Origin: Spirochaetae bacterium HGW-Spirochaetae-5
GTDB lineage: Bacteria; Spirochaetota; UBA4802; UBA5550
Assembly: GCA_002839285.1 (NCBI GenBank)
Contig: PGXT01000007.1
Span: 7,077 to 50,139, forward strand
Reading direction: 5' to 3'
DNA: 43,063 nucleotides
Below, one piece after another: positions 2,445 through 39,505 of the stretch. The translations under genes and the position numbers were made by a program. Within the stretch, counting starts at the first letter, position 1. Every line of letters begins with the position of its first letter. The notes beneath the pieces are model-generated. The model did not search any database. It saw nothing but the letters and a program-made list of their open reading frames with translations, and was not told the DNA's origin.

Positions 2445-2576
2445 AGGCAACAGTTAATTTTTGCGGGCACAGAGCTTCGCGCTGTGTCTGAAATGTAGGA
2501 TTACAGGGGCAACGCTCCCATTTCGACCGTATGCGATGCATATGCTTCATAAAATTAATTTGCGGCACATTAAATA
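2445..2576. repeat. Family A multi-hairpin repeat, copy 1
   Basis: Long palindromic element. The outer arms are CAACAGTTAATTTTTGCGGG and an inverted counterpart ending AAAATTAATTTGCGGC. Inside are a CAGAGCTTCGCGCTGTG hairpin, a second arm near CTGAAATGTAGGATTACAG, and a third arm GTATGCGATGCATATGC. It is the same layout as at 11784 and 18600. It lies just upstream of the nikR ribosome binding site and so probably within the nikR leader. Confidence 0.7.
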
Positions 2577-3077: not shown

Positions 3078-3271
3078 ACCGTCCCCTTTGTAAACTGACT
3101 TGTACCCATTTCACTCAGCCCCCTAAATCCCCTGGAGGGGGACTTTAAAACAATATCGCAAAATTCATTCATTTTAATCTAGTTTTTCAAATAAATCTCT
3201 TTTAAGTCCCCCTCCGGGGGATTTAGGGGGCTGCACAAAAGGATGTGGGTAACGATAAGGCGGGGGCGGTG
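3078..3271. repeat. Family D nested inverted repeat
   Basis: About 195-bp imperfect palindrome. The inner arms are CAGCCCCCTAAATCCCC (from 3116) and GGGGGATTTAGGGGGCTG (to 3233), separated by about 50 bp of AT-rich spacer. Each arm also carries its own hairpin (CCCCTGGAGGGG and CCCCCTCCGGGGG). Weaker outer complementarity joins CACCGTCCCC near 3078 with GGCGGGGGCGGTG near 3271. From memory, CCCCCTAAATCCCC-type inverted repeats occur in many unrelated bacterial genomes. This repeat occupies most of the gap between nikR and the LysM gene (3035-3385); nothing else was identified there. Confidence 0.75.
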
Positions 3272-8843: not shown

Positions 8844-8980
8844 TCAGTGATTATTTCTAAATATATTTTTTAGTGTAAAAACAGGAATTATATATCCCCG
8901 CCGCCGAAGGCGGCGGGGATATAGCTTTTTTTACTTAAGAAGAGTTACGGAATAAATACTGGAAATAAGTAATTTTTAAA
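8844..8980. repeat. Family C palindromic repeat, copy 1
   Basis: About 135-bp imperfect palindrome. Its centre is TCCCCGCCGCC-GAA-GGCGGCGGGGA, flanked by AT-rich arms: TTTTTTAGTGTAAAA on the left and CTTTTTTTACTTAAG on the right. The ends are inverted: the right end GGAATAAATACTG mirrors the left CAGTGATTATTTC. It closely matches the copy at 39372 along its whole length. It sits between prfA and prmC and may act as a terminator hairpin or be a miniature mobile element. Confidence 0.8.
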
Positions 8981-9877: not shown

Positions 9878-9967
9878 GGAAGAGGATGGGATCTGGTGGT
9901 CTCCGCGGTCTTCAAAACCGTTGGCTGTAGTTTACTGCAGCGGCAGGTTCGTTTCCTGCCCCTTCCG
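9878..9967 (+). tRNA. selC: tRNA-Sec (anticodon TCA)
   Basis: A 90-nt selenocysteine tRNA. The anticodon loop CTTCAAA gives TCA (reads UGA). The six-bp D stem GGGATC/GGTCTC with a four-base loop TGGT, and the long variable arm CTGTAG-TTTA-CTGCAG, are hallmarks of tRNA-Sec. The acceptor strand GGAAGAGG pairs with CCCCTTCC with one A/C mismatch, or with seven pairs and a bulged A. Only 12 nt lie between the T loop and the discriminator G, one fewer than the usual bacterial 8+5. The T loop TTCGTTT has T where A58 is normal. Encoded bases after the discriminator are CA, not CCA. Confidence 0.92.
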
Positions 9968-11783: not shown

Positions 11784-11904
11784 GGCAGCAGTTTATTGTT
11801 GGGGCGCAGCGCTACGCGCTGTGCCTGAAATGGGGGATACGGGAGCGAATCCCCCATTTTAGCGTATGCGTAAGCATACGTACCTCCGAAAATAATTTGC
11901 TACT
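11784..11904. repeat. Family A multi-hairpin repeat, copy 2
   Basis: The most complete copy. The outer arms are AGCAGTTTATTGTTGGGGC and its inverted partner TACCTCCGAAAATAATTTGC. Three hairpins lie between them in order: AGCGC-TAC-GCGCT; CTGAAATGGGGGAT paired with ATCCCCCATTTTAG; and CGTATGC-GTAA-GCATACG. One strand could fold into a four-way junction with three arms. It fills much of the 395-bp gap between the ACT gene and the cysteine-cluster gene; no other feature was recognised there. Confidence 0.85.
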
Positions 11905-12835: not shown

Positions 12836-12842
12836 AATTTTG

Positions 12843-12932
12843 GTAGCAGTTTATTTTTGGGGGCACAGCGCACCCGTAATCCTCCATTTCAGCGTATGCG
12901 GAGCATACGCACCCCCGAAAATAATTTGCTAG
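12843..12932. repeat. Family A repeat, copy 3 (internally deleted)
   Basis: The terminal arms TAGCAGTTTATTTTTGGGGG and CCCCCGAAAATAATTTGCTA pair over 23 positions with about five mismatches. The first hairpin and the left half of the second arm are missing: only CGTAATCCTCCATTTCAG remains. The GTATGC-GGA-GCATAC arm is intact. It begins eight bases after the YkgJ-family stop. Confidence 0.85.
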
Positions 12933-13038
12933 CTAAAATCTTCTGTAAAACAAAAATAAATAATTCTTGAAAAATGGTACTCCCTTCTGAATATAACTGT
13001 TTATTATCTGAAATACTGAATAATTGAGATTGAGGAAT

Positions 13039-17163: not shown

Positions 17164-17174
17164 CTAAATCATTT

Positions 17175-17197
17175 CCCCGCCGCCAAAGGCAGCGGGG
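17175..17197. repeat. Family C-type GC hairpin core
   Basis: CCCCGCCGCC-AAA-GGCAGCGGGG, the same core as the centre of family C, but without the AT-rich flanks seen at 8844 and 39372. It is directly followed by a family B element. Confidence 0.65.
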
Positions 17198-17200
17198 TTA

Positions 17201-17289
17201 GTGGCTGCTCAAAAACTGGTGGTAAAATTGCTCTCTGCCGCGCCGGTGGTGCGGCGGAGATAAAATACTTGTGGTTTTTCAGGAGTTAC
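17201..17289. repeat. Family B palindromic repeat, copy 1
   Basis: A GC-rich central hairpin (CTCTGCCGC with GCGGCGGAG) is flanked by unequal AT-rich arms: TGCTCAAAAACTGGTGGTAA on the left and GATAAAATACTTGTGGTTTTT on the right. The same modules occur at 30481 in the opposite order. It directly precedes the next gene. Confidence 0.7.
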
Positions 17290-18585: not shown

Positions 18586-18599
18586 TTACTCATATGATG

Positions 18600-18723
18600 G
18601 TGGCATTTTATTTTTTGTGGCAAAGCGCTACGCGCTGCACCTGAGATGAAGGATTACGGGGGGCTCCGTAATTCTCCATCTCAGGCGTATGCGAAGCATA
18701 AGTCTCGTTAAAATAATTTTCTG
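18600..18723. repeat. Family A multi-hairpin repeat, copy 4
   Basis: Outer arms near GGCATTTTATTTTTTGTGG and CGTTAAAATAATTTTCTG. Internal arms: AGCGC-TAC-GCGCT; CTGAGATGAAGGATTACGG pairing with CCGTAATTCTCCATCTCAG (two mismatches over 19 bp); and CGTATGC-GAA-GCATA. All three hairpins are present, as in copy 2. Confidence 0.85.
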
Positions 18724-18888
18724 TCTCATTTATTTTGCAGATTTTACCTGTTAGAAAATATGGAATCGATGCAGTGTATCGATTTAGTGTTTTTTACAGG
18801 ATTATGTCTCAAAAAATACGCATTGACGATGCGATTTATAAAAAAAAATTCATGTCTAAAAGGGGGTAAGAATCTACTAAAATTTGAG

Positions 18889-21125: not shown

Positions 21126-21281
21126 TTGTCTTCATTTGTTTATATTTGTACCAAATTGAAGAAATCTCTTAATGGTTTAATCAGTTTTAAACAGTTAAAT
21201 GTCTATAATTTTTTTTTATAAGCGATAAAAAAAGATTTGTGATGTTTATTGAACCCAGGTAGTATTTTATGAATTATTTAA

Positions 21282-21345
21282 AGTAGCGGGCAATTTTTTA
21301 CCCGGGCTCAGCGCGAAGCGCCGCGCCCTTAAAAATAAGAAGTCA
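21282..21345. repeat. Family A repeat, copy 5 (short)
   Basis: AGTAGCGGGCAATTTTTTAC, then a GC-rich hairpin AGCGC-GAA-GCGC, ending GCCCTTAAAAATAAG. Only the outer arms and one hairpin remain. It lies about 45 bases upstream of the adenylate cyclase start, probably within its leader. Confidence 0.6.
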
Positions 21346-21388
21346 TTATAATTCCTTTTTAAGCAGAAATATTATCCGGCATGGTAAG

Positions 21389-24792: not shown

Positions 24793-24890
24793 ACTTGCGA
24801 CCTCTTAATAGTTTACTGGAATTATTAATTATATAAAAACATTAATGTATAAGTCAATAAGTTTTTCTTCTGTAAAACAGAGGCTGGAGG

Positions 24891-24945
24891 ATAGCAATTC
24901 TTTTTCAGAGGTGCGTATGCTTTGCATACGCGGGAATTGTTACTG
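24891..24945. repeat. Family A repeat, copy 6 (short)
   Basis: TAGCAATTCTTTTTCAGAGG, then the perfect hairpin TGCGTATGC-TTT-GCATACGC, then GGGAATTGTTACTG as the inverted end. Only the third arm of the full element is kept. It lies between the hypothetical gene and the chloride-channel gene. Confidence 0.65.
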
Positions 24946-24999
24946 TTAGAGTTTTAACGTGAGGTGCGTTATTGAAAAATTTTATCCTGCTGTCCGGTT

Positions 25000-26945: not shown

Positions 26946-26988
26946 AGTCGGAGAGCAATTTCACCACCAGTTTATGAGTAGTCATAAA
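26946..26988. repeat. Family B repeat, copy 3 (half element)
   Basis: GTCGGAGAGCAATTTCACCA, CCAGTTTATGAGTAGTCATA: this matches one half of the full family B copy at 30481. The other half is absent, and a family C core is joined directly. Confidence 0.65.
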
Positions 26989-27014
26989 TCCTGCCGCCTT
27001 TGGCGGCGGGGAAG
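26989..27014. repeat. Family C-type GC hairpin core
   Basis: CCTGCCGCC-TTT-GGCGGCGGGG, joined without a gap to a family B half on the left and a family A copy on the right. Confidence 0.65.
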
Positions 27015-27078
27015 GCAGCAAGTTATTTTCGGGTGTGCGTATGCGCGAAGCGCTGTGCTTCAAGAATAAATCGTTACC
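27015..27078. repeat. Family A repeat, copy 7 (short)
   Basis: GCAGCAAGTTATTTTCGGGT is followed by GTGCGTATGCGCGAAGCGCT and an inverted end GAATAAATCGTTACC. It lies in the divergent region between the chloride-channel and DUF3467 genes (26836-27192). No other feature was recognised in that gap. Confidence 0.6.
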
Positions 27079-27192
27079 GCGGGGAAACAATTAATAACTG
27101 AAAAAAGTATTTGTTATTTTCAGTTGGTACATATTGAATTGCTGGATAGGTTGTAATAGATTTTTATACCTGCGAAAAAATTTGAGGGAAAA

Positions 27193-35947: not shown

Positions 35948-36010
35948 GGTAGTAAACTATTTCAGGGGCACATCGCTTCGCATACGCGCTCGGGAAAATT
36001 AATCGCTCAC
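35948..36010. repeat. Family A repeat, copy 8 (short)
   Basis: GTAGTAAACTATTTCAGGGG, then CACATCGCTTCGCATACGCG and the inverted end CGGGAAAATTAATCGCTCAC. It lies in the 417-bp divergent gap 35752-36168, which is otherwise AT-rich with no ORF or RNA gene recognised. Confidence 0.6.
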
Positions 36011-39371: not shown

Positions 39372-39505
39372 TCAGTAGTTATTCCTGAATATTTTTTTTA
39401 GTGTAAAAAATAATAATATATTCCCGCCGCCTTCGGCGGCGGGGATAATAGAGTTTTTTTGACTTTAGAAAAGTTAAGGAATAAATACTGAAAAATAGTT
39501 GTTTT
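39372..39505. repeat. Family C palindromic repeat, copy 2
   Basis: Centre TCCCGCCGCC-TTC-GGCGGCGGGGA. Left arm AGTAGTTATTCCTGAATATT and right arm AAGTTAAGGAATAAATACTG are inverted counterparts. The whole element matches the copy at 8844 at both ends. It lies between the sensor kinase and rpiB; the rest of the 325-bp gap is AT-rich with nothing recognised. Confidence 0.8.

Follow-up and report, generated by a model that had tools for sequence, protein, structure and literature searches.

A high-copy MITE family with a three-hairpin core and most likely an ISKra4 origin in a spirochaete genome

The palindrome at positions 11784 to 11904 of the window (the 43,063-nt stretch of DNA from Spirochaetae bacterium HGW-Spirochaetae-5 analyzed here) belongs to a family of about 150 or more scattered copies in the host genome, most likely a new MITE family of ISKra4 origin. 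We put at roughly 0.86 the probability that these are MITEs with terminal inverted repeats (TIRs) that are, or once were, recognized by an ISKra4 transposase supplied in trans, with 8- or 9-bp target duplications and with hairpin arms that outlast the ends. The family is a new one of a known kind, neither a new RNA nor a substrate of single-strand transposition.

The host genome (4.71 Mb in 309 contigs, 95% complete) was searched by blastn with positions 11784 to 11904, which gave 41 strong matches (177 first-look candidates, 40 of them scored). Thirty copies of the family, that at 11784 among them, were used to build a covariance model, which matched all 150 of the candidates scored with it, at no fewer than 147 distinct places on many contigs. 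TIR half-sites were likewise abundant, with 251 in the genome at ≤3 mismatches versus 4 for a reversed control pattern. The dispersed family with terminal inverted repeats described in the initial annotation is supported. Beyond the host, the model found zero matches in 58 relatives, of which the sole member of the same genus is only 73% complete, and a search of viral contigs and phage records gave none either. Nothing was found when named genomes were scanned for the exact pattern or when proteins were scanned with the ISKra4 transposase of a relative (G023, see below).

Complete elements are ca. 132 nt long (131 to 134 nt in aligned copies) and consist of TIRs of 22 to 24 nt (GGTAGC...GGGGG) with three consecutive hairpins between them. 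In the aligned copies the left end reads GGTAGCGGTTTATTTTTGGGGG and the right end CCCCCGAAAATAATTTGCTACC, arm 1 is GCACAGCGC-TTC-GCGCTGCGC, arm 2, of ca. 21 bp, is GAAATGGGGGATTACGGGGGC-NNN-GCCCCCGTAATCCCCCATTTC, and arm 3 is GCGTATGC-GGA-GCATACGC. The cloverleaf core with three arms that had been drawn from the window copies is supported by the fold of a consensus-like copy (L003), which closes as a cloverleaf when folded as DNA (−58.3 kcal/mol versus −22.6 ± 3.0 for shuffles, z = −12). A second class of ca. 60 to 68 nt keeps both TIRs, and in most of its members the left portion of arm 1 is fused with the right portion of arm 3. In copies with one end only, the break often falls within arm 2, where palindrome-induced deletion would be expected to place it. 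One-sided TIR matches were also considered as autonomous IS and proved on inspection to be truncated copies, several of them broken inside arm 2. The elements are short, non-coding, and bounded by TIRs, as MITEs are, and 132 nt leaves no room for a transposase gene.

Seven of the eight window sites that had been assigned to the family were recovered by the covariance model (E from 4e-30 to 1e-5), and the eighth, a short copy at 35948 that fell below the E = 0.01 threshold in the model search, was recognized by eye (Table 1). The three-hairpin anatomy is present as claimed at 11784 to 11904, where arm 2 lacks ca. 10 nt at its tip, and at 18599 to 18725, where the TIRs have decayed and arm 2 was largely kept through two-sided changes. 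Of the eight window copies, only these two are complete or nearly so; that at 2446 is decayed, and the rest are either remnants or derivatives with deletions. The view that shorter copies are deletion products with the ends kept agrees with the copy at 12842, in which CAGCGC of arm 1 is fused to the far side of arm 2. The copy at 27014 is flanked by a perfect 8-bp target duplication, GCGGGGAA, at 27006-27013 and 27079-27086, and its insertion point borders a GC-rich REP-like hairpin. This separate GC-rich hairpin family (CCCCGCCGCC...GGCGGCGGGG) occurs in the window at 8893-8932, 17173-17235, 26951-27013, and 39408-39447, and one of its hairpins is contained in a RAYT locus elsewhere (L107, 1343-1365). 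The window also holds a palindrome unrelated to the MITE, a 34-nt inverted repeat (3116-3149 and 3200-3233) that is 94% complementary with a 50-nt spacer.

Table 1. Members of the MITE family in the window and parts of the copy at 11784
Feature	Position	Strand	Evidence
Near-full-length MITE copy, 121 nt	11784..11904	+	Covariance model, 108.5 bits, E 4e-30; alignment
Left TIR, GGCAGCAGTTTATTGTTGGGG	11784..11804	+	Alignment, left end of the model
Hairpin arm 1, GGCGCAGCGC-TAC-GCGCTGTGCC	11803..11825	+	
Hairpin arm 2, TGAAATGGGGGAT...ATCCCCCATTTTA	11826..11861	+	
Hairpin arm 3, GCGTATGC-GTAA-GCATACGT	11862..11881	+	
Right TIR, ACCTCCGAAAATAATTTGCTACT	11882..11904	+	Alignment
Full-length copy, decayed	2446..2567	+	68.6 bits, E 1e-17
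Internal deletion derivative, both TIRs intact	12842..12933	+	70 bits, E 4e-18
Older full-length copy	18599..18725	+	87.5 bits, E 1e-23
Remnant, one hairpin and partial TIRs	21265..21347	-	34.3 bits, E 4e-7
Remnant, arm 3 and TIRs	24890..24991 (matching part ca. 24890-24948)	-	34.1 bits, E 5e-7
Short-class copy	27014..27078	-	29.4 bits, E 1e-5; flanks
Short-class copy, target duplication TTTTTAAGA/TTTTTAATA	35948..36010	+	Inspection only

The flanks of the copies indicate how they were inserted. Among 85 complete copies, the two flanks resembled each other more than the control only at repeat lengths of 8 bp (identity 0.51) and 9 bp (0.54), compared with 0.28 when flanks were shuffled between copies, and identity fell sharply at 7 and 10 bp. 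Repeats with ≤1 mismatch were found in 17 of the 85 copies at 8 bp and in 19 at 9 bp (control, 0.2% and 0.05%), and many short-class copies carry perfect 9-bp repeats (e.g., actgaaatc, aaaatcaat, and atctttatg). The family has both the target-site duplication and the high dispersed copy number that characterize MITEs. Duplications of 8 or 9 bp point to insertion by a DDE transposase and not to single-strand transposition, which the initial annotation had put forward. It is true that the host genome has eight Y1_Tnp genes and that the copies lie between genes and fold strongly, as expected if REP/RAYT-type (IS200/IS605-like) palindromes were mobilized here in single-stranded form by a tyrosine (Y1) transposase. 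However, long TIRs and 8- to 9-bp duplications contradict that mechanism (IS200/IS605 elements lack target-site duplication), none of the eight Y1/RAYT loci is bordered by MITE ends, with just an ordinary copy near one of them, and the GC-rich hairpin family found in one RAYT locus is a better REP candidate, which makes this origin highly improbable.

As for the insertion sites, neighboring genes were divergent at 20, tandem at 13, and convergent at 1 of the 34 copies with a gene called on each side. The divergent excess (p = 0.002, taking one third as the expectation, with a small, ORF-based background) is suggestive of a preference for sites between divergent genes. Part of the ISKra4 group is described as inserting upstream of promoters (PMC3942029).

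The assignment to ISKra4 comes from relatives of the host. The TIR pattern was searched with ≤1 mismatch across 46 genomes of the class and was found in two relatives of the same family, G008 and G004. In G004, GGTAGCAGATTAATTTTGGGGG lies 63 nt ahead of the start codon of a transposase gene fragment of the ISKra4 type, whose two frames, joined by hand at an A-run, match NF033572 (ISKra4 transposase) with E 1.4e-10; the fragment is cut at IS66-/IS21-type genes directly downstream (L118, 964-5821; ORFs read by eye). G013, also of the same family, has GGTGGCAGATTAATTTTAGGGG at the corresponding place upstream of a homologous transposase fragment. An intact ISKra4 IS (NF033572, E 2.8e-82) was found in G023, of the same order, with ends GGGAGTGAATTAATTTTCGGGG and GGGAGTGAATTAAATTCCGGGT, a divergent form of the TIRs, and an 8-bp (possibly 9-bp) duplication, GTCATGCG. 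G008 harbors a different MITE of ca. 233 nt with the same TIRs (L113, 1501-1733; L117, 1501-1730; L120, 596-831) and, in L117, a perfect 9-bp duplication, ATTTCTTAA. Mutator-like prokaryotic elements have inverted repeats of 18 to 39 bp and direct repeats of 8 or 9 bp (PMC3942029), and the MITE agrees with ISKra4 elements in TIR length (18 to 39 bp), terminal G/C, and direct repeats of 8 to 9 bp. Being non-coding and encoding no ISKra4 transposase, it is filed as a derivative and not as an IS.

The closest ISKra4 elements, those of G004 and G013, are truncated and have one end only, the intact G023 IS has diverged TIRs, and a full-length autonomous IS with exactly the TIRs of the MITE was not found among the genomes searched. 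Nor was an ISKra4 transposase gene detectable in the host assembly, for which reason the family looks orphaned and transposition in trans is deduced across species, although a multi-copy IS could be absent from a fragmented assembly. Within the 100-copy set the nearest pair of copies is 94% identical, which gives no sign of recent activity. Two other masters were considered and rejected: DDE_Tnp_1, with two host genes, neither bordered by MITE TIRs, and IS1595, with no such gene found in the host genome.

We then considered the arms. In an alignment of 100 copies, which leans towards the arms since it was fitted to a model containing all three, the named cloverleaf had 205 cells with two-sided changes, more than any of the shuffles (90.5 ± 9.8) and versus 58 to 122 for slid controls; in arm 2 alone, Watson-Crick cells with two-sided changes numbered 125, where independence would predict 11.7. 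The statement that arm sequences vary while pairing is kept holds up well, and covariation is present. Its extension to selection for structure is weakened, as template switching between the arms of inverted repeats yields paired changes as well, together with loop inversions (PMC8794818, PMC8604942). Reverse-complement pairs are indeed seen among the loops of arm 2 (AGC/GCT, AAC/GTT, TGC/GCA, GTA/TAC, and ATC/GAT), but their number was not significant against column shuffles (p = 0.29), and loop inversion in arm 2 is only suggestive.

The excess of two-sided changes, together with the lower divergence of arms than of unpaired positions (see below), would also fit a dispersed structured RNA (a regulator, attenuator, or 3′ stabilizer) whose fold is under selection, as the initial annotation had alternatively suggested. 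Against it, the arms show G-T and A-C mismatches at equal frequency (67 and 81, p = 0.29), which indicates that pairing is not maintained for the sake of one RNA strand and favors neither strand as RNA, the element has no Rfam match, and just 1 of the 34 classified copies has convergent neighbors. We regard a structured RNA as improbable. The only Rfam matches in the window were tRNA and tRNA-Sec, none of them at the element; the selenocysteine tRNA (9878-9966; RF01852, 70 bits) indicates that the organism probably makes selenoproteins.

The arms decay more slowly than the ends, an aspect that merits further work. Across age classes defined by the target duplication, divergence rose from 0.19 to 0.37 at the TIR tips and from 0.15 to 0.28 in the unpaired core and went from 0.04 to 0.03 in arms 1 and 3, in a large set that was collected with an arm-dominated model and favors copies with intact arms. 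In seven full-length copies met incidentally, divergence was 0.083 in arms 1 and 3, 0.12 in arm 2, 0.19 in the inner TIR, 0.31 in the unpaired core, and 0.32 at the TIR tips, so that even in this small sample the hairpin arms were 2 to 3 times less diverged than unpaired or terminal positions. How the copies were sampled accounts in part for the low divergence of arms 1 and 3 (3 to 4%) among the 100 copies; the value is 8% in the copies met incidentally. Template switching alone preserves pairing but, by our reasoning, should not lower divergence from the consensus; the slow decay could come from constraint on arms 1 and 3, from biased correction, or from conversion between copies.

Both samples would agree with a MITE core that the host has co-opted for a role at the DNA level (as a binding site for a nucleoid protein, gyrase, or a regulator), with arms 1 and 3 near-invariant after the ends decayed. 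However, the large sample favors intact arms, the incidental one is small, and part of the effect could come from gene conversion or template switching, and we consider co-option rather unlikely. The more general idea, that once the ends have decayed the hairpin core is actively maintained through selection for a function at the DNA level or hairpin-templated repair, seems to us less likely than not. If true, a dead MITE family would turn into uniform palindromes throughout a genome, and REP-like repeats could in this way arise from MITEs. With ca. 150 copies of graded age, the family amounts to a natural experiment on the fate of inserted palindromes, and it allows testing of selection versus template switching as the source of compensatory changes in hairpins.

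Returning to the ISKra4-derived MITE that we favor, an ISKra4-family DDE transposase (Mutator-like, related to IS256/ISLre2) would act in trans on the 22- to 24-nt TIRs, and insertion, mostly upstream of genes, would create the 8- or 9-bp duplications. This enzyme probably moved the copies and has since been lost or is unassembled, so that most of them would now be immobile. After insertion, the ends would decay and the arms remain paired, likeliest by template-switch correction between the closely spaced arms at replication, at the DNA level, with perhaps additional selection on arms 1 and 3.

The family adds a high-copy MITE with ISKra4-type ends to the known systems; a literature search for ISKra4 and MITE returned no such family in the titles or abstracts considered. 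With ISKra4-family IS of the ISMich2-like type (Mutator-like, p-MULT 4; PMC3942029) it shares TIR length and sequence type and 8- to 9-bp duplications, and the transposase of the relatives is in two frames with a shift at an A-run, like that of the ISMich2 group, which uses a −1 frameshift (PMC3942029). Unlike these IS, it is 132 nt long, has no transposase gene, and has a three-hairpin interior without visible similarity to the IS. Like the MITEs Chunjie, QMITE2, and ERIC (PMC10969869), it is non-autonomous, intergenic, high copy, and strongly foldable, with TIRs, direct repeats, and size variants that keep the ends; it differs from them in family and ends (the TIRs were not compared letter by letter), in its full three-arm cloverleaf, and in a copy number (ca. 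150 or more) in the upper range. REP/BIME sequences with RAYT are also high-copy, GC-rich intergenic palindromes, but the MITE has target duplications and long TIRs and no linked RAYT. Finally, the two-sided stem changes, and more suggestively the reverse-complement loop triplets, resemble those of inverted repeats homogenized by template switching (PMC8794818, PMC8604942), systems that are RNA genes and coding sequences, whereas here they occur in a MITE family.
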